Shown here in pieces: positions 1-12,033 of a stretch of 37,663 nucleotides of DNA. The DNA is from Phycisphaerales bacterium (GTDB taxonomy: Bacteria > Planctomycetota > Phycisphaerae > UBA1845 > Fen-1342): the NCBI GenBank assembly GCA_003162245.1, contig PMMM01000211.1:1-37663 (forward strand), in the 5' to 3' direction. A program made the position numbers and the translations under genes. The notes below the pieces were generated by a model that was not told the origin of the DNA, ran no database searches, and worked only from the letters and a program-made list of their open reading frames with translations. Positions within the stretch are counted from its first letter, which is position 1. Each line of letters starts with the position of its first letter.

Positions 1-11
1 GGGCTGAGAAT

Positions 12-50
12 GCGGTCGCCCTGAGGACAGGGAGCATTTGCTCCGACCGC
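12..50. repeat. Nested palindrome able to form a three-way junction
   Basis: A perfect 7-bp outer stem (12-18 GCGGTCG with 44-50 CGACCGC) encloses two perfect hairpins. These are CCCTG-AGGA-CAGGG at 19-32 and AGC-ATTT-GCT at 33-42. It ends two bases before a consensus -35 hexamer. There is no T-run, so it is not a classical terminator on either strand. It could be a dispersed palindromic element, the 3' end of an upstream transcript or an operator; the sequence does not decide. Confidence 0.55.
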
Positions 51-52
51 GC

Positions 53-83
53 TTGACAGCACCCGACGCCACTGCTACATAAA
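53..83 (+). promoter_or_regulatory. Sigma-70-type promoter of the PocR kinase operon
   Basis: A perfect TTGACA lies at 53-58. It is followed after 17 bases by TACATA (76-81), or after 19 bases by CATAAA (78-83), both imperfect -10 matches. Transcription would start near 88-90, giving a leader of about 125 nt. It is the only strong -35 seen upstream of the kinase gene. Confidence 0.5.
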
Positions 84-121
84 AGAAAGGTGGCTCCTGT
101 CTCCTCTTATCTGGGCCGCCG

Positions 122-137
122 CCGGGCCGGGGCCCGG
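122..137 (+). other. GC hairpin in the leader of the kinase operon
   Basis: CCGGGC (122-127) pairs with GCCCGG (132-137) around a 4-base loop, about 80 bases before the kinase start codon. It has no T-tract. It may affect mRNA stability or simply reflect local GC content. Confidence 0.3.
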
Positions 138-215
138 ACTTCGTATCGCCGCCAGAGCGTGGGGTTCGTGTTTGACCCCGATTGCCGTGGCCCATGTCCG
201 TGCGGAGATTAGCCG

Positions 216-2576
216 ATGACCGACAATCGCATCTTCGAATACGTCGAGAAGGGCCAGATGGAACGGCTCTTAAGAGGTATTGCGGAACTCGCAGGCGTTG
301 CACTACGCCTGTCCGACGCCAAAGGCGAGACGCTCTGCGGCCCCTTCAACTTCACGGAGCTGTGCGCACGCTACAACTTCGCGTGCCGACCGGACCTCTG
401 CAAGGCCTCCGCCGTGAAGCGCATGGCCCGGTTGACCAAGGACCAGCTATATCATGTATTCGAGTGTGCGGGTGATGGCGACCGGCCTGGAGAAAGCGGC
501 GCGGGGATCTTTGATGCGGTCGTGCCGATTCGAGTCGCTGACGAGCACATCGCCAGCATTAATTGCGGGCAGGTCCTGTTCGAACAGCCGGACACCGCGC
601 GAAGGGCGCGTTTTCAGGACTTTGCGACCCACGGGCTGGGCCTGGGCGGCGAGGAGTTGCGCGGGTACTTGCGCGCGGTCGACTCGCTGCGAATCATGCC
701 GCGCGAGCGTCTGACGACAATTCTCGACTTCCTTGGATGGTTGGCCAATCTGGTGTCCAGCTATGCCTACGACCATCACCAAGTCACACAACTTCACCCC
801 TTGATGAAAGCCAGGGCGCGTTCGCCGGAGCAGATCGTCGCAGATGTCCTGGCCACCGTCAGCCAGGTCTGTGCGGGGACACTCGGCATTACGTTGTGGT
901 ACTGCGACGGCGAGGGATCTTTGGTCTTAAAGGCACTCTGGGGTTTCGAGCCTGTCGAGATCAGCCGACGCGTCATGCCGATGAACCGGTCGATTTCTGG
1001 CCGGGCCTTGCGCGAGGGCCAGGTCAAGTTCGCCGAGCTTCCCGATGACCCCGACTTCTGCGACCCGACCTTGCTCGAACGGCACGGACCGTGTCGTCTC
1101 GCCGCCATCCCCTTCGTTGACCTCGCGGGCGGCGACCGGCACCTCGGAGCGGTGGCGGTTTTTTTGGACCCGGCCGGTCCGCTTCCATCGGAGCACGTAA
1201 TTGCATTGGTCTCGCAAACGCGCGGCATGTTGGAGACCGCCCTGCACAGAGAGAGCGATTTGCACCGACAGGGCATTATTGCCGCGGCTGCCACCCTCTT
1301 GACAGCGGACGAGGACAACTTCTGGTCGGAGTTCGACCGGATCGTGCTCAGTACACTGCCGAACGTGAGGGCGTACGTGCTGTACATGCAGGACGAATAC
1401 CGCGAGCACTGCAATCCGGTGCGCACAGGAGTTTTTGACGGCGCGCCGGAATTCAATCAAGCCCAATTGCGGAAATTCTGCCGACATGTGTTGCGCCAGG
1501 TGACCGACCGCGGCCGTGCGGTTGCGCATCATGACCTTTTGTCGAGCGAGACGCCACAGCCCGAGCGGGATTTGTTTCAGCAGACGTTTGTCGGGCCGCG
1601 GGACGCCGCCCCGAGCTTCAGCGCTGTGGGAGTTCCGCTTCGCGACAATGAGAACCGTTTGGTCGGTGGGTTGATTTGCGTTGCGGCCAGGACAGCCCAG
1701 AAGCCCGACGCGGGGGTCCCTTGTTTTGTGTTTCCGACATTCGCGCACAGCCATATCAGCGCGATGCAGGGTCTGGGCTCGGTGCTGTCGATTGTGTTGG
1801 CCCGCCAGAATGCCGAACGGGCGCGGGCCGTGGCACAGGCGGTGCGGATGCACGAGCTCGTAGCGCCGCTACATGCAATGCAGGGCTATCACGAAAACCT
1901 AGTGTGCATGTTCAGAGACCTCAAGTCCAGACTGTCGTCGCAGGAGCTTGACTATGCTCCGTTCGAAGCTCAGCTTACTCGTCTGGGTTACCTCTGCGAG
2001 CTGCTTGGGCTTATTGCCACGAGCGATGCGCTTGAGGGCCCGACGAGGCTCTCATGCGCGAGCTTCGAGCGTGATATTCTGTTACCTATTGTGCAGCCTT
2101 TGCGTGCGTATGCGCTGGCCGAAAAAGGGAGTAGCGTATGGTACGCGAGCGACTTCCATCAGGAGCTTCCTGCCGTCTGGTTAGCAGTGAACCGCATGAA
2201 GCAATGCGTGTTTAACCTCGTGTTTAATGCGGTTAAGTACTCGATGCCCTACACCCGAATCGCAATCACGCTGCACACAGGCAAAGACAGGGACAGCCCC
2301 GAATGGGAGATTCACGTAAGGAACCAAGGTATCGGCGTGCCCCGGGGCGATGAGGATCGCATTTTCTGGCGTTTTACGCAGGGCTCAAACGCGGACCAGG
2401 TGGCGGCGTCCGGCTCCGGGCTCGGTCTCTATGTGGCGCGCGCCATCGCCCGCAAGCATGGGGGTGACGTCGTGTTGCGGAACGGTAGCCCCGAGAACAC
2501 GGTCTTCGTGCTTAAGTTGCCGTATTCGCTAAGGGATCGTCCGCCCGAGAGCGTGCAGAAGGAGCTTGGAGAATGA
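216..2576 (+). CDS. PocR/GAF-domain sensor histidine kinase
   Basis: 786-residue, apparently cytoplasmic sensor kinase; no signal peptide or membrane segment is visible. Residues 5-170 resemble the PocR ligand-binding domain, with Cys 41, 50, 57, 62, 84 and 117 and the PI-V-...-GQVLF block (104-122). Two GAF-like segments follow (about 205-345 and 355-530). The kinase core has an H-box HELVAPLHAM (candidate phospho-acceptor His546), an N-box NLVFNAVKYS (667-676), a G1 box in which Asp is replaced by Asn (703, NQGIG), and a G2 box GSGLGLYVARA (733-743). The start is supported by GGAGA 7 bases upstream. The stop overlaps the downstream receiver start (ATGA), so the two are probably translationally coupled. 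PocR domains are known from regulators of propanediol utilisation; the ligand here is unknown. The Asn in G1 occurs in some active kinases, so loss of activity cannot be assumed. Confidence 0.85.
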   Translation: MTDNRIFEYVEKGQMERLLRGIAELAGVALRLSDAKGETLCGPFNFTELCARYNFACRPDLCKASAVKRMARLTKDQLYHVFECAGDGDRPGESGAGIFDAVVPIRVADEHIASINCGQVLFEQPDTARRARFQDFATHGLGLGGEELRGYLRAVDSLRIMPRERLTTILDFLGWLANLVSSYAYDHHQVTQLHPLMKARARSPEQIVADVLATVSQVCAGTLGITLWYCDGEGSLVLKALWGFEPVEISRRVMPMNRSISGRALREGQVKFAELPDDPDFCDPTLLERHGPCRLAAIPFVDLAGGDRHLGAVAVFLDPAGPLPSEHVIALVSQTRGMLETALHRESDLHRQGIIAAAATLLTADEDNFWSEFDRIVLSTLPNVRAYVLYMQDEYREHCNPVRTGVFDGAPEFNQAQLRKFCRHVLRQVTDRGRAVAHHDLLSSETPQPERDLFQQTFVGPRDAAPSFSAVGVPLRDNENRLVGGLICVAARTAQKPDAGVPCFVFPTFAHSHISAMQGLGSVLSIVLARQNAERARAVAQAVRMHELVAPLHAMQGYHENLVCMFRDLKSRLSSQELDYAPFEAQLTRLGYLCELLGLIATSDALEGPTRLSCASFERDILLPIVQPLRAYALAEKGSSVWYASDFHQELPAVWLAVNRMKQCVFNLVFNAVKYSMPYTRIAITLHTGKDRDSPEWEIHVRNQGIGVPRGDEDRIFWRFTQGSNADQVAASGSGLGLYVARAIARKHGGDVVLRNGSPENTVFVLKLPYSLRDRPPESVQKELGE

Positions 2577-3199
2577 AGGTTCTTGTCATCGATGATGATC
2601 GTGTCTATACGGAGCCAGTCGTGTGGCGACTGGAGCACGAGGGCTTCGAAGTAGTGCACTGCATCTCGGCAAGCGAGGTTCTGTCTGGCTGGTTCGAAGT
2701 GACAGATCAGACGGTGGAGTCGCTCCGCCGCGATGGGGTACCTGCTTCTGTGCTAGAACGGCTCGTGCACGCGCCTACCGAGGACGATGGTGGCTTGGGA
2801 GAACCTGTACGCTGTGTCCACGTAGACGCTTTTCGCTGCAAGTTGGAGCGCCGGCTGGGTGAGGAGGAGGCCAGCAGGTACTTCGAGTCGATTCGGTCGC
2901 GAGCGCACCGAGACCCGCTGACGCCCGCGCCGGACGTCGTAATCCTCGACCTGATGATGCCCCGCGAGCACTACGGCAAGCAGGAGTCGGAGAACGGGCG
3001 GGCTACGGGAGTTGCCCTGATGCGGGATATTGTTGAGCGCGTGCCCAGCGCGCGTTTTGTGGTGCTGACGGTACGCGACGAACCGGAGTGCCACGCGGCG
3101 CTGCGCAAGCGATTTGGGAGAAGTATCGTCGAGATTGTGCAAAAGCCGGCATTGCCCAGCAGAGTCGCAGAAGCGGTGAAGAACGTGTTTGCCGTATAG
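2573..3199 (+). CDS. Atypical response-regulator receiver protein with large internal insert
   Basis: 208 residues. The receiver fold is recognisable from MKVLVIDDD (acid pair Asp8/Asp9), DVVILDLMMP (phospho-acceptor Asp126), VVLTVRD (Thr166) and QKP (Lys191). All catalytic positions are therefore kept. The distance from strand 2 (about residues 26-30) to strand 3 (121-126) is about 90 residues instead of about 15. The loop after the acceptor aspartate is also lengthened. No DNA-binding or enzymatic output domain follows. It overlaps the kinase gene by 4 bases, with an AAGGAG ribosome-binding site inside that gene, so it is almost certainly the partner of that kinase. Output is probably through protein-protein contact; the insert may be the contact surface (inference). 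Confidence 0.8.
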   Translation: MKVLVIDDDRVYTEPVVWRLEHEGFEVVHCISASEVLSGWFEVTDQTVESLRRDGVPASVLERLVHAPTEDDGGLGEPVRCVHVDAFRCKLERRLGEEEASRYFESIRSRAHRDPLTPAPDVVILDLMMPREHYGKQESENGRATGVALMRDIVERVPSARFVVLTVRDEPECHAALRKRFGRSIVEIVQKPALPSRVAEAVKNVFAV

Positions 3200-3213
3200 A
3201 TGGAGCTTAATCC

Positions 3214-3858
3214 ATGCCTCGAGTATCCCGATTGGCCCTCGTGGTGCTAGTTGCCGTCCCCTGGGCGGCGGCCGAGGCACAATCACGTCCAGAAACCACG
3301 TGCAAATTCTCGCAGGAGGCCTTGGATGATCGACTAAGGAGCCTTGATGCACGTGTGACTAGCGTCGAGAGCCAGGCGCCGCAGTTTCTTCTGACATGCT
3401 TGGCCCTGAGCGTCGCCGGCGGGGCCGGGGCCGTTACGGTGCCTGCGTTATGGCGGAGACGCGCAGCGAAACGCCACGCGGTCGAGCAAGCCCACCGAAT
3501 CAGTATTTCACTAAAAGCGGTGTACGAGCTTGCCGTCGTCGTGATCAAGGTGTCCCATGCGGCGGCGGACCGGGGAAGCGACGGCGTTTTAGACTTCCGG
3601 AAGCTGTTGCTGCCGCTTACGCTGCACAAAGGCCGACTGATGGTGATTTGCGGTGGCGATGCCGACGTAATCGTTGGCGCGAATGAGCTTCGCCAACTCT
3701 CGAAGGAGCCTCATGACCGCCTCAAGGCGCTGGCAGCTTTGAAGCACGCAACAACGCGCACCGAGCTGTCGGACGAGGCGAGGCAGGCTGTCCAGGAGGC
3801 TAGCGATCACTTGAAGAAGTCTGGCCCGGGCGGGTCCATGAGCGCGAGGCCAGCATGA
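3214..3858 (+). CDS. Unrecognised protein with signal peptide and one membrane segment
   Basis: 214 residues, family not recognised. Residues 1-22 look like a cleavable signal sequence (MPRVSRLALVVLVAVPWAAA, then EAQ). Residues 33-53 could form a short coiled coil, 56-78 are a hydrophobic membrane span, and RRRAAKR (81-87) follows as a positive-inside anchor. The C-terminal 130 residues are helical and charged and would lie in the cytoplasm. The gene starts 14 bases after the receiver stop behind GGAG, so it is the third member of the operon. It may be the membrane target of the receiver (inference from context only). Confidence 0.6.
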   Translation: MPRVSRLALVVLVAVPWAAAEAQSRPETTCKFSQEALDDRLRSLDARVTSVESQAPQFLLTCLALSVAGGAGAVTVPALWRRRAAKRHAVEQAHRISISLKAVYELAVVVIKVSHAAADRGSDGVLDFRKLLLPLTLHKGRLMVICGGDADVIVGANELRQLSKEPHDRLKALAALKHATTRTELSDEARQAVQEASDHLKKSGPGGSMSARPA

Positions 3859-4016
3859 TGATGTCTCCCGCGGTTCATCCGAAAAGAGAGGGCTGACGAG
3901 GGTATCAGTGAGTGTGCGAGCGCGGAACGGACCGCCGAACGGTTCCGTTCGGGGTCGATTTGAAGAAGCGATCTGAAAAAAACGTCAAACTCACCGCCAC
4001 CATTGCCAAGCCAGGT

Positions 4017-4025
4017 TGTTATACA
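4017..4025 (+). promoter_or_regulatory. Extended -10 promoter-like site
   Basis: TG-T-TATACA at 4017-4025 fits an extended -10 element (TGnTATAAT) with two mismatches. There is no good -35 at the usual spacing. Transcription would start near 4032, about 70 bases before the terminator. Confidence 0.35.
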
Positions 4026-4031
4026 TAGTGG

Positions 4032-4102
4032 AACGCTTCAAAAGCCCATCCCAGCGCATGGGCCACGGATTGTGCACCACGCACGTCCGCGGCCCCTTTT
4101 TT
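4032..4102 (+). ncRNA. Candidate short attenuator-like RNA
   Basis: Predicted transcript of about 71 nt from the extended -10 site to the T-run. Two hairpins exclude each other. GCCCAT (4044-4049) can pair with ATGGGC (4058-4063), while the same GGGC forms the 5' side of the terminator stem. That switch-like geometry is typical of attenuators, but no + strand gene follows. It may be a small RNA or simply the 3' end of the kinase operon transcript. Confidence 0.3.
4060..4102 (+). terminator. Rho-independent terminator
   Basis: GGGCC-A-CGGA (4060-4069) pairs with TCCG-C-GGCCC (4086-4095) with one A/C mismatch. An inner GTGC/GCAC stem (4072-4075 with 4081-4084) extends it, and six T follow (4097-4102). 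It lies 200 bases after the last gene of the kinase operon. Confidence 0.75.
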
Positions 4103-4196
4103 ATGCCCGATAACTGCCGGAATCCTTGCAGGTTTCGCGCAGCCGACCTGCGCCCCTCTCATCCCCTCGGCAGCCATCGGTCGCGGTCGCGTTCAG

Positions 4197-5405
4197 CTAC
4201 CAAATGACGGCCGCGGCACAAGTTACGTGCGTCTGCGAGCCGTAGTCGACCGCCTGATGATAGCGAAGAACGCGGCAAGCGCGCCGAGGGAGCGATCGGA
4301 GAGCGGCGTAAATACACCCAGGGCTGCAAATCCTTGTCGGATTTCCGGTTACGGCTATTCGCCGCAGGAACTGCTCCTCATGACGTGTTTCGAGCAGCGT
4401 CAGCAAGTGCCGTTCGGCCTTTGCCACTTCCGCCAGGATCGCCGGAGTAATCGGCGCCCAGTCCCCGAACGGCCTCCCGATGTGACTGAGATCGGCGCCG
4501 GCTAGCACGACCGTTCGCTCGCGCCCCTCAGCAACCAGCAGCCCCAACGCGTCGGCGAACCGGGCAAGATCAGATGCCGTGCTATCCGCGGGAGCGGTAT
4601 CGGCCTCCACGCACGGATTCGGACAGAGAAACGGGACGATCTGGAACGGCCGGTCCCCGGCAATCACTTGCAGAATGTGAACCTGCAACTCGATCGAGTG
4701 CTCCCAGAGGTGGTCAAGCTCCTCAACGGTGAGCGACACGCCCAGCCGTGATTCCAGACGCTCAACGAAGTCGCCGTCCACCGCGACGACACCCAGCGGC
4801 GTGCAGAAGGACTTCGTGGTCGCCACAACCCCCGCCGACCGCCCGGCGTGATTTGTACCCAGGATGACGTACCGGTCCGCTACCGGCATCTGCGCCAGCG
4901 TCGCATACGCGTCCGCGTAGCACGGAGCCCCGCGCGCGTAATCCAGATGCGGCGCGATCAGCCCGCGCACGTCATGGACCGGCGCCGCCGTCCCGCTCGC
5001 AAGGAGCTCCTCGATCTCGGCTCGCAGGGCGGTCGCGTCGGGGTAGCGCTCGCGGTTGTCACGGTGAGGGGCGGCACGGAACTCCGCCCGCCGCCGCTCG
5101 TACGCCTGCTCGAAGCGCTCGTTGTGCAGCAGGAGGGCCTCATCGAGTACGCCTACGAGCTGGAGAATCTGCTCGGTCGGCACGTGCAGCCCGAGTTGCT
5201 GCTGGAAGGCGGCCTCGATGTCCGCACACGAGTGCCGCCCGTCGAGGTGGGCGAGGACGAAGTACCCGGCCGGCGAAACCGCGAGCGTCTGCGGGGCGAT
5301 GTGAATCCGATCGTGGACGACGAACCGCAGACTCTCCTCGCCCCCTTCCTGGACGGGCGTAACGTCGACCGACCGTAGCGCAGGCAGAGGATCCGGTATG
5401 CTCAT
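4197..5405 (-). CDS. Memo-family (AmmeMemoRadiSam system B) protein with PqqD-like N-terminal domain
   Basis: 402 residues. Residues about 145-400 match the Memo family. They contain GLIAPHLDY (His153), LGTNHAG (His186), EHSIELQ (His236), GADLSHIG (Asp305/His308) and RICSPGC (Cys360), which correspond to the metal/active-site positions of that fold. Residues about 25-100 (VSPAGYFVLAHLDGRHS and what follows) resemble a PqqD/RiPP-recognition winged-helix domain, which the human Memo protein lacks. Neither the AMMECR1 nor the radical-SAM partner gene of the AmmeMemoRadiSam trio is in the window. It starts 17 bases after the flippase-like gene, so it is last in that operon. Function of the bacterial family is not established. 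Confidence 0.8.
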   Translation of the reverse strand: MSIPDPLPALRSVDVTPVQEGGEESLRFVVHDRIHIAPQTLAVSPAGYFVLAHLDGRHSCADIEAAFQQQLGLHVPTEQILQLVGVLDEALLLHNERFEQAYERRRAEFRAAPHRDNRERYPDATALRAEIEELLASGTAAPVHDVRGLIAPHLDYARGAPCYADAYATLAQMPVADRYVILGTNHAGRSAGVVATTKSFCTPLGVVAVDGDFVERLESRLGVSLTVEELDHLWEHSIELQVHILQVIAGDRPFQIVPFLCPNPCVEADTAPADSTASDLARFADALGLLVAEGRERTVVLAGADLSHIGRPFGDWAPITPAILAEVAKAERHLLTLLETRHEEQFLRRIAVTGNPTRICSPGCIYAALRSLPRRACRVLRYHQAVDYGSQTHVTCAAAVIW

Positions 5406-5422
5406 CGAGGATCTCGCGGGCG

Positions 5423-6670
5423 CTAGGGAGGCTCGACCAACCGCGCCGCCGCGGCCTCCGGCACCGCGGCGCCCGCGTTCGTCACAGCATCCGCTGTGTT
5501 TGCCGCGGCGTCAGGTTGCACTTCGAGCTCCGCGAGCTGCGCCTTGCTGGGCAGATGCGCCCCGAGCAGCGGGACCAGCACGCCGGGCAGCGCCCAGACA
5601 AGCTGGATCAGCCGCACCGCCAGCGCCAAGGCTACTGCCTGCGACGGATCGTTGTGCAGCGCCCCGCCGGTGAAGAACTTCACGTAGAAGTACTCCAGGA
5701 CGCCGAAGGCCTGGGGCGGCGCGATGGGAATGGCCGCGATGAGGAAGCCGATGGACACGTAGACGAAGTAGTGGGACCAGCCGCCTTCCATGCCGAGGGC
5801 GTGGGCCATGATGGCGGCGCTGAACATGCAGATGCCCTGCAAGACGAAAGTCATCAGGAGCGACACGACGATGAGCAGTTTGTGGTGCCGCATGGCGACC
5901 GTGGCGCGGCCGACACGCAGCAACTGGTCGCCCATCGGCAGGCGGGCCGCCAGTTCCTTCAGACGCAGGACGCCCCGGATGCGGCGGCTGAAGACGACGA
6001 TGCAGCCGGCGCCCAGGACCGCACAGATCACCAGCAACGTGACGATGAGTTGGCCGAACTGGCTCGGATCGCTCGTGAACAGGATGGCGGCGCCGGCCAG
6101 CATCACCAGTCCGAACAGCCCGATCGCACGGTCGAGAAACACCGTGGTGACGGCCTCCGTCTTCAGGTGCGTGTAGTGCGTCAGGTAGTAGGCCTTGATC
6201 AGATCGCCGCCGGTCGTCCCGGGCAGCGCGAAATTGAAGAAATTGCCGGCCACGGTGAGCTTCGTCGCCGGCCAGAGCCCGAGCCGCACGTCCTGGACGG
6301 CCAGCATGACCACCAGCCGCCAGCTTTGGATTGCGATCACCGGTATGAAGATGATGATCGCCCACAGGGCCAGCCACTTGTCGGTCTTCGGCACGACCGT
6401 GGCGATGCCACGCTCGATCTCCGGGACACTCTGGCCATTGACGTCGATGCGGTGGACGGCGCTGAGCGGGATCGTTTCCTGGCGCCCGTCGCGCAGGATC
6501 ACGAATTCGTCCCCGCGCGGCTGCTCCACAAGCCGCACCATCGGCCCCTTCGGGCCCGTCAGCCGCACGTAGTCGTACCACGGCACGGTGTGCACCAGCC
6601 AGGCAATGGCCACGACACACAGGCCATAGCGCAACAGCAGCAGCATCCAGCGCAGGAAAGGCTTGCTCAT
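5423..6670 (-). CDS. Flippase-like (LPG synthase transmembrane/UPF0104) membrane protein
   Basis: 415 residues from the ATG at 6670; a GTG at 6679 would add three. A first membrane span (about 10-28) is followed by an extracytoplasmic segment of about 80 residues. Seven or more further spans follow. The signature GNFFNFALPGTTGGDLIKAY with FLDRAIGL just after it is that of the LPG_synthase_TM/UPF0104 family, which includes lipid-flipping or lipid-modifying membrane proteins. There is no MprF catalytic domain, so aminoacyl-lipid synthesis is not indicated. The C-terminus is rich in Ala and Pro. Its position directly after a GT-C-like gene suggests joint work on a lipid-linked glycan (inference). 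Confidence 0.75.
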   Translation of the reverse strand: MSKPFLRWMLLLLRYGLCVVAIAWLVHTVPWYDYVRLTGPKGPMVRLVEQPRGDEFVILRDGRQETIPLSAVHRIDVNGQSVPEIERGIATVVPKTDKWLALWAIIIFIPVIAIQSWRLVVMLAVQDVRLGLWPATKLTVAGNFFNFALPGTTGGDLIKAYYLTHYTHLKTEAVTTVFLDRAIGLFGLVMLAGAAILFTSDPSQFGQLIVTLLVICAVLGAGCIVVFSRRIRGVLRLKELAARLPMGDQLLRVGRATVAMRHHKLLIVVSLLMTFVLQGICMFSAAIMAHALGMEGGWSHYFVYVSIGFLIAAIPIAPPQAFGVLEYFYVKFFTGGALHNDPSQAVALALAVRLIQLVWALPGVLVPLLGAHLPSKAQLAELEVQPDAAANTADAVTNAGAAVPEAAAARLVEPP

Positions 6671-6724
6671 CCGACGCACCTATGTTCGCGGCGAGTCCCG
6701 CGCGGCGGACAGCGCCCGCCAGGT

Positions 6725-8761
6725 TCAGTCCGGCGCAACCGCGTAGATGTCCAGATCGGTTGCATCGAACTCGTCCGGCAGCGCGATGCGTCGCAATCCG
6801 GCGGCACCAAGGCGCTGCACCCAGTCCCGGGTTACAAACGCGGGGAACCCGTACGAGCGTTGCAGCCGCTCGATTTCGCTCCATGAGAATACCACATGGG
6901 TCACGCTTTGGGTACGCAGCCAGGCGACAGCCTGCGCCGGCGCGGCTTGGGCGGCGTAGGTCAGCCACGGATCGCGGTCGAACACCACCGTGTAGTGCAC
7001 GCGCGGCGTCAAATAAAACGCGCGGGCCTCGCCAACCACCCACGCGTTCGCGTCGGCCGGCAGCGCCCGGTTCAGCGGCTGCACCTGCGCGAGCAGATCG
7101 GTCCGGCCGACCAGCGCCCGCAACGGGACCCCGTGGCGCCCCCACCAGCGATCCTCCTCCCGCCGCAGACCATCCAAAGTGGCGCTATTCGCCACGCCGC
7201 CCGCGAAGGCTGCCACCAGCATGAACGCGGCGAGGCGGCACGCTGCCGTACGGGCCGCGGGTCCGCGCTGCACGAGGTCCCGCCACGTCACCGGGCTGGG
7301 TACGGCGCTGCCGGCGAGCAGCGCGAGCGGAATAACGCTTGGAACGGCGAACCGCCCCGGCATGTGAGTGAGCGTCGCCCAGGCCGCGATGATTACCGCC
7401 AGCCAGACGGTCCAGAACACGGCCACCCGATCGCGTGCTCTCACGAGGCCGCATAACGCAAGCAGGAACAACGCGGGCCCGAACATCCGCGCCGCGAATA
7501 GCTCGTGCCAGACAGCGAGGCTCCGGCCGGCGACCGAATCTGAGCCGGCGGGCACGCGGTGACCGCGGGCCCATTGCTGATCCTGCTCGGCACTCCACGC
7601 CGCACCACCCAGCCAACGATATCCGAAGGGATAGACGGGGTTTCCGGTGAACGCGGCGTTGCGCACCAGCCAAGGGCTGAACGCGACGAGCACGCCGCCC
7701 GCGTACACCGCAAGACGTCGGACGCGGATCGGCAGCGCCGCACGCATTGTGCAGAGCCATGCTAGGCCGAGTCCGGCCGCAACAAACGCGAGCGCCGTGT
7801 ACTTGGTCCCGCCCGCCAGGCCGGCGCACAAGCCCGCCGCCAGCGCCGTTCGCCAGTTGCACGGCCATTCCCCCTTCACTTGGTCCAGCACCAGGCCCGC
7901 CGCAACCGCCGCGAACAAGAGCATGGCAAGTTCGACGTACGCCAGGCAGCCGAGATATGCCAGCCAGGGCGTGGACCCGGCCAGGACCGCGACGACGACC
8001 CGTGCGGGGCCGCGCGGCGTCCACGCCGCCATCGCCAGGACGGCCATGACTCCGCACAGCGCATGGAGCAATTGCGCCGGGATCGCACCGGCCAGGGACC
8101 CGCCGGCCAGGTGCATGAGCAGCAGATAAAGCACCTCCATCTGCTGCGGGAAGGAGGCGTAGACGTTGTACGGCAGGAATTGAATCCGCCCGGCGTCGTA
8201 GTACTCGCGCGGCGCTTCAAGATGGTACTCGAGCGCGTCGTACGCCCGGTTCTCGCCGGCCCACAGCACGCCGGGGGGCAGCGTCGCCCCGAAGCACGCG
8301 ATTGCCAACGGCACGACCAGCGCTAGCAGCAGAACCGCCACGATCAAGAGCGGTGCGATGGATGCCGCCAGCGCGCGGTCGTGCTGCTCCCCAGCCAGTG
8401 GCTGCCCGTGAAGTCTGGCCACCCGCCACACGCCCAGCGCCCAGCCGACCGCCAGCAGGACCCACGCGACCGGGCCGTTCAGCGCCCCCATGACCCCCAA
8501 CCCCAGACTTAGCGTACTCAGGACGCCGAGACCCAGCGCAGCCGCAGCACAAACTTGCTGGAGCGCGGGCCGCCGCCCCAGGCCGAGCCACACCGCAGGC
8601 CAGGTCCCCCAGCCCACCGCCGCGGCAAGTACGCCGGCTGCGAGCGCCCCGTCCACGGCCAGGGCCAGCCACGTCGCCGTCCCGCCGAGCACGGTCAGCG
8701 CGATCGCGACCGCCATGGCCAGGGCAAACAACGGTATGGCTCGGCGGTACGTGGGCGACAT
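6725..8761 (-). CDS. Multi-pass membrane protein, putative GT-C fold glycosyltransferase
   Basis: 678 residues with about a dozen hydrophobic segments. The first large loop contains ENRAYDALEYHLEAPREYY, whose acidic residues resemble the Asp/Glu-bearing first loop of GT-C (polyprenyl-phosphate-sugar dependent) glycosyltransferases. A soluble C-terminal domain begins at about residue 540. The fold call rests on this architecture and not on a named family signature. It lies 45 bases upstream of the flippase-like gene on the same strand. Alternative: an uncharacterised planctomycete membrane protein of another function. Confidence 0.55.
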   Translation of the reverse strand: MSPTYRRAIPLFALAMAVAIALTVLGGTATWLALAVDGALAAGVLAAAVGWGTWPAVWLGLGRRPALQQVCAAAALGLGVLSTLSLGLGVMGALNGPVAWVLLAVGWALGVWRVARLHGQPLAGEQHDRALAASIAPLLIVAVLLLALVVPLAIACFGATLPPGVLWAGENRAYDALEYHLEAPREYYDAGRIQFLPYNVYASFPQQMEVLYLLLMHLAGGSLAGAIPAQLLHALCGVMAVLAMAAWTPRGPARVVVAVLAGSTPWLAYLGCLAYVELAMLLFAAVAAGLVLDQVKGEWPCNWRTALAAGLCAGLAGGTKYTALAFVAAGLGLAWLCTMRAALPIRVRRLAVYAGGVLVAFSPWLVRNAAFTGNPVYPFGYRWLGGAAWSAEQDQQWARGHRVPAGSDSVAGRSLAVWHELFAARMFGPALFLLALCGLVRARDRVAVFWTVWLAVIIAAWATLTHMPGRFAVPSVIPLALLAGSAVPSPVTWRDLVQRGPAARTAACRLAAFMLVAAFAGGVANSATLDGLRREEDRWWGRHGVPLRALVGRTDLLAQVQPLNRALPADANAWVVGEARAFYLTPRVHYTVVFDRDPWLTYAAQAAPAQAVAWLRTQSVTHVVFSWSEIERLQRSYGFPAFVTRDWVQRLGAAGLRRIALPDEFDATDLDIYAVAPD

Positions 8762-8844
8762 GCGGTAAGAGGTTCGGCGGCAGGCGTCCGGGCGTCAAGG
8801 GCGGCCGGCTCACGCCCGCAGGCAGGACAAGGACGTGGCCCCGT

Positions 8845-9420
8845 TCAGGACCCGCTCTGGGCCTTGCGAATCGCACGCAACAGGTGCTCGTGAATCTCAA
8901 CCGGGTGCGCGAGGTGGTCCCACACGACGGCGGGCAGCTCGGGCGCCACGGGCGTCATGTGCACGGAACCGAGGCGCAGCCAGCGCTCGTACCCGAGAAT
9001 GCGCAGATCGGCCGCGCTGATTCTCGTAAGGGGGCACCCGACGACGTTCACGCTCAGAATGCCGCGAAAACGCATCACCCGGCGGTTCGTGAGCACGTAG
9101 AGTTGGCTCGCCCATTGCAGCGCGGCCACGGCCACCCGGGCGACCGCGACGCCAGCCAGAAGCTGAAACGTCACCAGCCCCTGGCGCGTGCCGCCCCCCT
9201 GCAGCGCGACCGCCACCACGACCCCCAGCAAAGCCGCGACGAGGACCCATTTCGCGGAGACGACGGCAATAAACCAAAGCGACGGCTTGATCGAGAGCTG
9301 GATGATCTCGTCGCCATCCAATTCGAGGCGAACGGCGGCCTTCGGCGCCGCGATGGCCGGGCTTTTCACGGCCGCGGGGGCCTCGGCGACGACACTCCGA
9401 ACCGGCTCGGAATCGGTCAC
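8845..9420 (-). CDS. Bacterial PH-domain (YdbS-like) membrane protein
   Basis: 191 residues starting at GTG, which overlaps the hpt stop (GTGA). An Ala/Pro-rich N-terminus is followed by two membrane spans (about 49-73 and 83-103) and a bacterial PH domain of the bPH_2 type: LYVLTNRRVMRFRGIL (108-123), then a PLTRISAADL segment. Proteins of this type sit in the cytoplasmic membrane and their biochemical role is mostly unknown. The overlap with hpt implies coupled translation. Confidence 0.75.
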   Translation of the reverse strand: MTDSEPVRSVVAEAPAAVKSPAIAAPKAAVRLELDGDEIIQLSIKPSLWFIAVVSAKWVLVAALLGVVVAVALQGGGTRQGLVTFQLLAGVAVARVAVAALQWASQLYVLTNRRVMRFRGILSVNVVGCPLTRISAADLRILGYERWLRLGSVHMTPVAPELPAVVWDHLAHPVEIHEHLLRAIRKAQSGS

Positions 9421-10013
9421 GGCATCAGCTCCGGATGGAGGACGCCCACGTGCGGATAGTTCCTATAGTGATCATCGTAGTCCAAGCCGTAGCCGACGAC
9501 AAACAAATCTTCGATTTCGAACCCCACGAGCTCCACGGGCACGTCCGGCGGCGCCTTGCTGGCCTTGCGGAGGAGCACGGCGGTGCGAACGGTGCGGGCG
9601 CCCCGCTCGCGGACCAGCGCCTGAACCCGGCGCAGCGTCCGTCCGCTGTCGAGAATGTCGTCGACGATTAGGACGTTGCGGCCCTCGATCTGACCGGTCA
9701 GATCGATGACCGTGCGCGGGGCCTGCGGGGTTGTGGTGTTGCCCGGGTAGGTGGAAACCTGGACGAGGGCAATCTTCATCTTGAGCGGCAACTCGCGAAT
9801 CAGATCCGCCAGGAAGATGATGGAGCCGGACAGGATCGGCACGAGCGTCAGGCCGGCCTCATCGCCGCTATAGAGGTCGGCAATTTGGACGGCTAGCGCC
9901 CGCACGCGGGCCCGGATTTCGTCTCGATGAATCAGGATGCGGGCGATGTCAGGTGTGATCGCGTCGGATCGCGAGCCGTACACGGGGATGGACCTCCAGT
10001 CGCGCCGGGTCAC
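9417..10013 (-). CDS. hpt: Hypoxanthine phosphoribosyltransferase
   Basis: 198 residues. It transfers phosphoribose from PRPP to hypoxanthine or guanine in purine salvage. The PRPP-binding motif VLIVDDILDSGRT lies at 114-126; the SGS-I-F and YPGNTTTPQ segments match the flexible active-site loop region. The C-terminal VVGYGLDYDDHYRN block is the base-recognition region of this family. GTG start, overlapping the HD-domain gene stop by GTGA; the next gene overlaps in the same way. The N-terminus is about 15 residues longer than usual; an internal start is possible. Function is secure. Confidence 0.93.
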   Translation of the reverse strand: MTRRDWRSIPVYGSRSDAITPDIARILIHRDEIRARVRALAVQIADLYSGDEAGLTLVPILSGSIIFLADLIRELPLKMKIALVQVSTYPGNTTTPQAPRTVIDLTGQIEGRNVLIVDDILDSGRTLRRVQALVRERGARTVRTAVLLRKASKAPPDVPVELVGFEIEDLFVVGYGLDYDDHYRNYPHVGVLHPELMP

Positions 10014-10717
10014 GCGGGCTCAGGCTCCACGGGCTGACCGGCGTGCGCGAGCAGTTGCCGCACGTCGCTGCCGTGCAGATCGCGCGTGAGAGCGGTCACA
10101 AACGCGTCCACGGCTTCGAGCCGCCGCCGGGCCAGCGCCCGCGTGGCCTCATACCGGAAGCCTTCGCTCAGCCGCAGCTCCCAGTACTTGTATTCCTTCT
10201 GCCGCTGCCAGCCATCGGCGAGTTGCTGGAGCGGGCGGCCTTCGGCCTGGTACTGGCGAAGCAGACGCAGCATGTACACCGTGCCGACCTCGTCGAGGGC
10301 CTCGGCCTCAGCCAGCAGGCGTGCCTCCAGCAACGTCGTGCTCCGATCGTTGCACTGGCGGACGGCGTCGCATGCCAGCCGCATCGTGGCCCCCGGCAGG
10401 AGTACGCCGACGTGCTCCTGGAGCAGGGCGGCTCCGAACTCACGCTGAATGTCGTTCGTGGGCCGGCCGAGGATTTGCCACCGCTTCCAGCGCCCCTGCT
10501 GAAACTCGACGACCCACCCGGCATCGTGGAACAAGGCGGCCGCCGCCAGGGCGGCCAGGTCCGCGGATGCGGCCCCGAGCGCCGGGAGCATCGCGATCAT
10601 CTGCGTCAGGCGCAGGACGCGCTCGCTGTGCTCCCAGAGCCACGGATCGCTGGTGGCATCGTCGATCTTCAGCATCAACAGTTGTTTGGCCGGGGGCAAC
10701 AGGCGTTCGATCTGCAT
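10010..10717 (-). CDS. HD-domain protein
   Basis: 235 residues from the ATG at 10717. The open frame runs on to 11107, but the extra part is Arg/Pro/Gly-rich and unlike protein. His30 (LWEHSERV), His64-Asp65 (LFHDAGW) and Asp142 (EAEALDEVG) give the H...HD...D metal set of HD-superfamily phosphohydrolases. The C-terminal 80 residues are helical with no known domain. It is the first gene of the six-gene minus-strand run and overlaps hpt (GTGA). A role in nucleotide metabolism is suggested by that coupling only. Confidence 0.7.
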   Translation of the reverse strand: MQIERLLPPAKQLLMLKIDDATSDPWLWEHSERVLRLTQMIAMLPALGAASADLAALAAAALFHDAGWVVEFQQGRWKRWQILGRPTNDIQREFGAALLQEHVGVLLPGATMRLACDAVRQCNDRSTTLLEARLLAEAEALDEVGTVYMLRLLRQYQAEGRPLQQLADGWQRQKEYKYWELRLSEGFRYEATRALARRRLEAVDAFVTALTRDLHGSDVRQLLAHAGQPVEPEPA

Positions 10718-11127
10718 CGCTCGCACCACGCCGACGGCGCCTCGCGTGTGGGCGTCCGGCCGGGTGTGCGTCGAGCCCACCGCCGACCCGCGCGTCTGGT
10801 CGCCGGGCGACAATACCGGGCCAGTGTACAGGTGGGCGGGTCTAGCGGCAAGCGTGGCGCGGACCGTCGGCCGACGGGCAACCTCCGACGCAGATACAGG
10901 GCGCCCGCGCAGGTCTTGCCGCTTCGGCCGCGCACGCGCGTCAATTGCGCTCTCCTTCCCGGGCCGCCGCGGAAAACTCGCCCGCGCTCCAGTCCGATGA
11001 AGGAGGTGGGAGAACGGCGGGCCGGGTCGAGTAGCGGCCGCATCGCACTGCTGGCACGGCTGCCATCCCAAGCACGACGCGACGGCGCGGCGTGTCCGCG
11101 GTTGCAAACTGAGAGAAAAGGCAGGCT
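10718..11127. other. Gene-free region between divergent genes
   Basis: 410 bases between the HD-domain gene (-) and the HDOD gene (+). Open frames on both strands are Arg/Pro-rich shadows without ribosome-binding sites. The region must hold promoters for both sides, but I found no convincing -35/-10 pair. GAGAAAAGG just before 11128 is the HDOD ribosome-binding site. Confidence 0.5.
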
Positions 11128-12033
11128 ATGTCCATCACTCTGGCTTCCGCCAACACCGCCACAAGTACCGGAAAGACCCTGCCGCCCGAGCTGCAGAAGA
11201 TCGTCGCCCGGGTGACCGAGATCAGCTCGCTGCCGGAGATCACGACCCGGATCGTCGCGGTGGTGGAGGATCCGCGGGCCACGGCGCGTGACATGCACGA
11301 CATCGTGCGGTCGGACCCGGCACTCGTGGCGAAGATCCTCAAGGTCGTCAACTCGGCCTTTTACGGGTTGCCCGCGCAGATTGCCAGCCTGGAGCGGGCC
11401 ATCGTCATGCTCGGGCTCAGCGCCGTGAAGAACCTCGCGCTCGCCGCCTCGCTGTCGCGCATGTTCCGCGCCGACGCCGTGTGCGACCAGTTCGCCGCCC
11501 GCGACCTGTGGCGACACTGCGTCGCGGCGGGCGTAGCGGCGCGGCTGCTGGCCAACGCGGTTCACTTGCCCCAGGTCGACGAGGCCTTTGTCGCCGGATT
11601 GGTGCACGACGTGGGCCTGATCGTGGCCCAACAACTCTTCCCGGCCAAGCTGCGCGAAGTGGCCACGGCCTGCCTGAGCAATCCGCAGGACTTCTGCGCG
11701 ACGGAGATCGCGGTCATCGGCGCCGACCACCAGGCGTTGGGCTGGGCCCTGGCGAGCCGCTGGAAGTTCCCGCCGGGCCTGCGGCACGCGATCGCGTACC
11801 ATCACGAACCCTGGGCATTGCAGCCCGAGCTGCGGCGCATGGCCGCTACCGTCTACGTGGCCGACACGTTGATTTGCCAGGCCAAGCTCGGTTTCTGGCT
11901 GACCGCCAGCCGACAAGCCGTGTCCGACGAGACTCTGGGGCTCGTTGAGCTGTCGCGACCGGCGTTGGACGAGATCGTCGCGGCGCTGCCCGGCCACGTC
12001 GACGAAGCGGAGCAGATCTTCGCCGACGGGTAG
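11128..12033 (+). CDS. HDOD-domain protein
   Basis: 301 residues. Residues about 20-220 form an HDOD domain: SSLPEITTRIVAVVEDP, the DIVRSDPALVAKILKVVNS block, FYGLPAQIASLERAIVMLG, and LVHDVGLIVAQQLFP near 160. HDOD proteins are HD-related regulators found with signalling, motility and stress genes and usually lack phosphodiesterase activity. No second output domain is attached; the last 80 residues complete the helical fold. The stop lies 18 bases from the stop of the convergent MFS gene, leaving no room for a separate terminator. Confidence 0.85.
   Translation: MSITLASANTATSTGKTLPPELQKIVARVTEISSLPEITTRIVAVVEDPRATARDMHDIVRSDPALVAKILKVVNSAFYGLPAQIASLERAIVMLGLSAVKNLALAASLSRMFRADAVCDQFAARDLWRHCVAAGVAARLLANAVHLPQVDEAFVAGLVHDVGLIVAQQLFPAKLREVATACLSNPQDFCATEIAVIGADHQALGWALASRWKFPPGLRHAIAYHHEPWALQPELRRMAATVYVADTLICQAKLGFWLTASRQAVSDETLGLVELSRPALDEIVAALPGHVDEAEQIFADG

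Follow-up and report, generated by a model that had tools for sequence, protein, structure and literature searches.

Three open reading frames at the left edge of the window, the 37,663-nucleotide stretch of DNA analysed here, which is the entire contig C58 of a genome in 264 contigs, are interpreted as an accessory, probably acquired two-component operon whose output would be protein contact, with a membrane-anchored third protein as the nearest candidate target; this interpretation is given about even credence. The frames lie on the forward strand and encode a kinase of 786 amino acids (216-2576), a receiver of 208 amino acids (2573-3199) and a third protein of 214 amino acids (3214-3858). 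The kinase stop and the receiver start overlap exactly in ATGA (2573-2576), and a gap of exactly 14 nucleotides (3200-3213) separates the receiver gene from the third gene, as the original prediction had stated. In all three genes the annotated frame gives the best codon-usage score, with weak coding scores in the receiver insert and in the N-terminal portion of the third protein; the non-coding flanks score negative in every frame. The three-gene stretch had been taken to cover positions 1-4102; this extent has to be shortened, as 3927-4102 is a conserved flank that also occurs in operon-less genomes and lies outside the operon. The dedicated promoter proposed for the operon is retained as a possible promoter upstream of the kinase gene (53-81, forward strand); its TTGACA at 53-58 is perfect, but the TACATA -10 box, 17 nucleotides further on, is weak and matches at three of six positions, the pair was not counted by a promoter scanner, and the contig starts at base 1.

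The sensor kinase and its Asn-type relatives

The first gene (216-2576, forward strand) encodes a soluble sensor histidine kinase with Pfam matches to PocR at residues 10-184 (E 1e-19; 71.3 bits against a curated cut-off of 23.9), to GAF_2 at 201-328, and to HATPase_c at 659-770 (E 1.1e-21; 77.7 bits against a cut-off of 26.4). The predicted combination of PocR with two GAF-like domains is clear for PocR and one GAF domain, but the second GAF-like region, at about residues 345-525, was recognised by eye; on the whole kinase, two stretches were assigned to GAF_2 by Pfam, and the fragment 329-540 searched alone against Pfam gave no GAF match. The kinase boxes follow in proper order, from the putative H-box MHELVAPL with His546, which has similar counterparts in both sister kinases described below, through the N-box NAVKYS at 671 and the G1 box NQGIGV, in which Asn703 replaces the usual Asp, to the G2-box GSGLGL at 733; none of the dimerisation families in Pfam matched the kinase. 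Hydropathy exceeds 1.5 in a single scanning interval, at residue 207 inside the GAF domain; on this measure the kinase has no clear membrane anchor and appears to be cytosolic. Its PocR domain over the Pfam cut-off, GAF domain, putative H-box and HATPase_c domain place it with the cytosolic PocR/GAF sensor histidine kinases, from which it differs in a G1 box that begins with Asn, a trait found in only two further kinases. Over its full length, no close relative of the kinase was found. A match to the PADLOC candidate defence system PDC-M43 (33 bits, HATPase region only) was rejected because the similarity is generic to HATPase; unrelated kinases score higher.

The replacement of the G1-box Asp by Asn703 was correctly predicted, and it has a wider distribution. 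Among 65 kinase catalytic domains collected from fetched loci and compared at this position, 62 carry Asp and three carry Asn: the window kinase, the kinase of G411, a Planctomycetota groundwater MAG (L058/L094; JACRLV010000047.1), and the kinase of G109 (L145). These three form one clade in a maximum-likelihood tree (support 98/93, and 97/84 once the Asn/Asp column was dropped), which is based on 123-124 usable columns, places L145 on a long branch and includes only these three clade members. Judged by this tree, Asn703 is a clade trait, not a one-off. A stand-alone receiver directly follows the kinase in all three cases, and thus the kinase-receiver module recurs. The window pair shares with the G109 and G411 pairs the Asn G1 box, the supported clade and the adjacent receiver; unlike the window kinase, the G109 and G411 kinases have GAF-type sensors without any PocR match. 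One scan of genome contigs with a kinase alignment returned only three loci; when plasmids were searched for relatives of the G109 and G411 kinases, the seven regions read contained no such pair by annotation, and carried ordinary kinases (KdpD, CopR-linked and others). The reading frame of the G411 kinase is broken between the GAF and ATPase parts, with a frame change near 11600 (L058 10975-12894, reverse strand), by assembly error or decay.

The stand-alone receiver and its insert

The receiver (2573-3199, forward strand) keeps all of its phosphorylation residues (D8, D9, D126, T166 and K191) and has no output domain, in agreement with the original prediction. In both respects it resembles the CheY/Spo0F-like receivers that adjoin a kinase; unlike these, it carries an insert of 75 residues between strands 2 and 3 (residues ~44-118; 2702-2926, forward strand), delimited by alignment to ordinary receivers, and a second extension in the loop after strand 3, which is 13 amino acids longer than in ordinary receivers. 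The protein therefore departs from the compact fold of about 120 residues, and its Pfam match is split into two stretches and reaches 30.4 bits against a cut-off of 30.2. Structure prediction from the single sequence gave a pLDDT of 39, too poor to show the fold. Compared with known output domains, the insert belongs to no known family: nothing exceeded a cut-off in Pfam, PADLOC or PHROG, and PDB yielded no credible match. An apparent PDB match of the insert to SAKe, a designed protein, is made up of five identical repeats scoring 5.8 bits each and was dismissed as a repeat artefact; candidate identifications of the receiver as NitrOD1 (E 0.07) and as SduA (E 0.0016) were rejected, as both match on the receiver fold itself.

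Homologues of the receiver were found neither in its own genome nor in 392 genomes of the phylum, in 150 relatives or among plasmids, viral contigs and genome contigs, the scans of genome contigs and viral contigs being weak tests seeded on exact 8-residue words. From the searches with the receiver and the third protein, the candidates L006-L008 and L097-L099 (E ~1e-3) cover short stretches, several with internal stops, and are attributed to chance. The receiver of L145, the complete sister, has the long loop after strand 3 without the 75-residue insert. Strands 3 and 4 of the G411 receiver (L058/L094) also seem to be followed by additional residues, an uncertain observation given the masked N run within this receiver. 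The receivers of the Asn-type clade may tend to gain inserts.

Because the catalytic residues are kept and two sister kinase-receiver pairs exist, kinase and receiver make a credible phosphotransfer pair, with putative autokinase activity in a kinase that carries Asn703. The loss of the usual G1-box Asp and a receiver score barely above the Pfam cut-off would also suit a decayed or weakly active system, with nucleotide binding lost through Asn703 and the receiver disrupted by its insert; yet the Asn is common to a clade with long branches whose members keep the remaining kinase boxes, the coding signal is intact, and every receiver residue is kept, which makes decay very unlikely.

Genomic setting of the operon

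Comparison with related genomes suggests that the operon is probably an accessory unit acquired horizontally. A synteny breakpoint lies at 3927: G392, a genome of the same genus, is 93% identical to the window rightwards (3927-10887) and unrelated leftwards, where it continues past the breakpoint into 197 bases that are absent from the window's genome. The Memo gene is kept in G405, G396 and G394; on the operon side, G405 has PilZ-like neighbours (recognised as PilZ by eye). GC content is 60-62% in 1-4000 versus 64-71% rightwards, and GC3 is 0.69-0.73 on the operon side versus 0.78-0.90 in three neighbouring genes. A sequence of 21-23 bases, GGGCTGAGAATGCGGTCGCCCTG, at window 1-23 also occurs at C92:1-23, C208:1-21 and C227:4605-4629 of the same genome (G000); it starts or ends four contigs, adjoining unrelated genes, and marks the edge of an unresolved dispersed repeat. 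The synteny break, the GC drop and the contig-edge repeat together fit an acquired or mobile unit; rearrangement of old DNA, with both genomes breaking off near 3927, is an alternative that keeps some plausibility.

The flank itself contains an intergenic element (4015-4102, forward strand) that is conserved between genera within the family (G392, G394 and G405), with 33 bases identical to G394. It comprises an invariant AAGCCCATCCCAGCGCA with a TATACA-like box just upstream, followed by a GC hairpin and T6; it had no match in Rfam. Lying next to the Memo gene and older than the operon, the element may be a small RNA or a regulated terminator.

The third protein and the proposed output

The third protein (3214-3858, forward strand) was predicted to have a signal sequence, one span and a basic cytoplasmic part of no known family, and its sequence is in keeping with these features. 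Its signal-like, hydrophobic N-terminus (residues 1-23) ends at an AEA|QS-like cleavage site; a single span at about 57-79 is directly followed by RRRAAKR, so that by the positive-inside rule the C-terminal part (80-214) would be cytoplasmic. A third, weaker hydrophobic stretch at 93-118 is a possible second span. The calculated pI of the cytoplasmic part is 10.1, versus 5.6 for the receiver. Structure prediction from the single sequence reached a pLDDT of 35. No homologue was found in 392 genomes of the phylum, in 150 relatives, on plasmids or in viral contigs (the viral scan, with exact 8-residue seeds, being a weak test), and no similar open reading frame lies downstream of the L145 and L094 receivers.

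This distribution bears on how the third gene relates to its neighbours. The gene could be a passenger of an accessory island, with the kinase-receiver pair working alone on an unlinked target, as the sister pairs must; its absence beside these pairs and its lack of homologues in the genomes, plasmids and viral contigs searched point in this direction. However, the 14-nucleotide spacing and the shared strand suggest one transcript, uninterrupted by any gene of a different kind, and the passenger explanation is considered rather unlikely. The anchored protein could also serve as input, by tethering the soluble kinase or the receiver to the membrane or by passing an outside signal to the kinase. 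A short outer part combined with a cytoplasmic part would suit this role, as would a PocR/GAF kinase without a clear membrane anchor; yet the PocR and GAF domains already supply cytosolic input, and the sister pairs do without such a protein, which leaves an input function quite improbable.

In the preferred interpretation, a two-component operon with output by protein contact, the PocR and GAF domains of the cytosolic kinase would sense a small molecule, as their families suggest; PocR is predicted to be a sensor of simple hydrocarbon derivatives (Anantharaman and Aravind 2005, as listed in PMC1592074). Conserved residues and gene overlap suggest that autophosphorylation at His546 would be followed by transfer of the phosphate to Asp126 of the receiver. 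Since it has neither a DNA-binding nor an enzymatic output, the receiver would act by protein contact, probably through the surfaces of the 75-residue insert and the 13-residue loop. Receivers that stand alone and act through protein contact are frequent, at least among archaea (PMC5847659), and have been documented in Methanosarcina (PMC11784639). The partner could be the single-span third protein, a guess prompted by the presumed co-transcription and by a basic cytoplasmic part facing an acidic receiver. As a caveat, opposite calculated charges are weak evidence for a relay that ends at the membrane. The phospho-relay originally proposed is upheld, as an inference, in its kinase-receiver part, but neither sister pair has an anchored third gene, and the final step to the membrane protein is a guess that the evidence neither supports nor excludes.

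The locus presently stands as a lineage-specific two-component operon plus an orphan protein. A broader proposal, that the Asn-type kinase lineage pairs with receivers gaining lineage-specific effector-surface inserts, the insert in this case allowing the phosphorylated receiver to act directly on a co-encoded single-span membrane protein, is improbable; if it were true, two-component output would bypass DNA through an effector surface grafted into the receiver, and the Asn G1-box kinases would constitute a functional subfamily.
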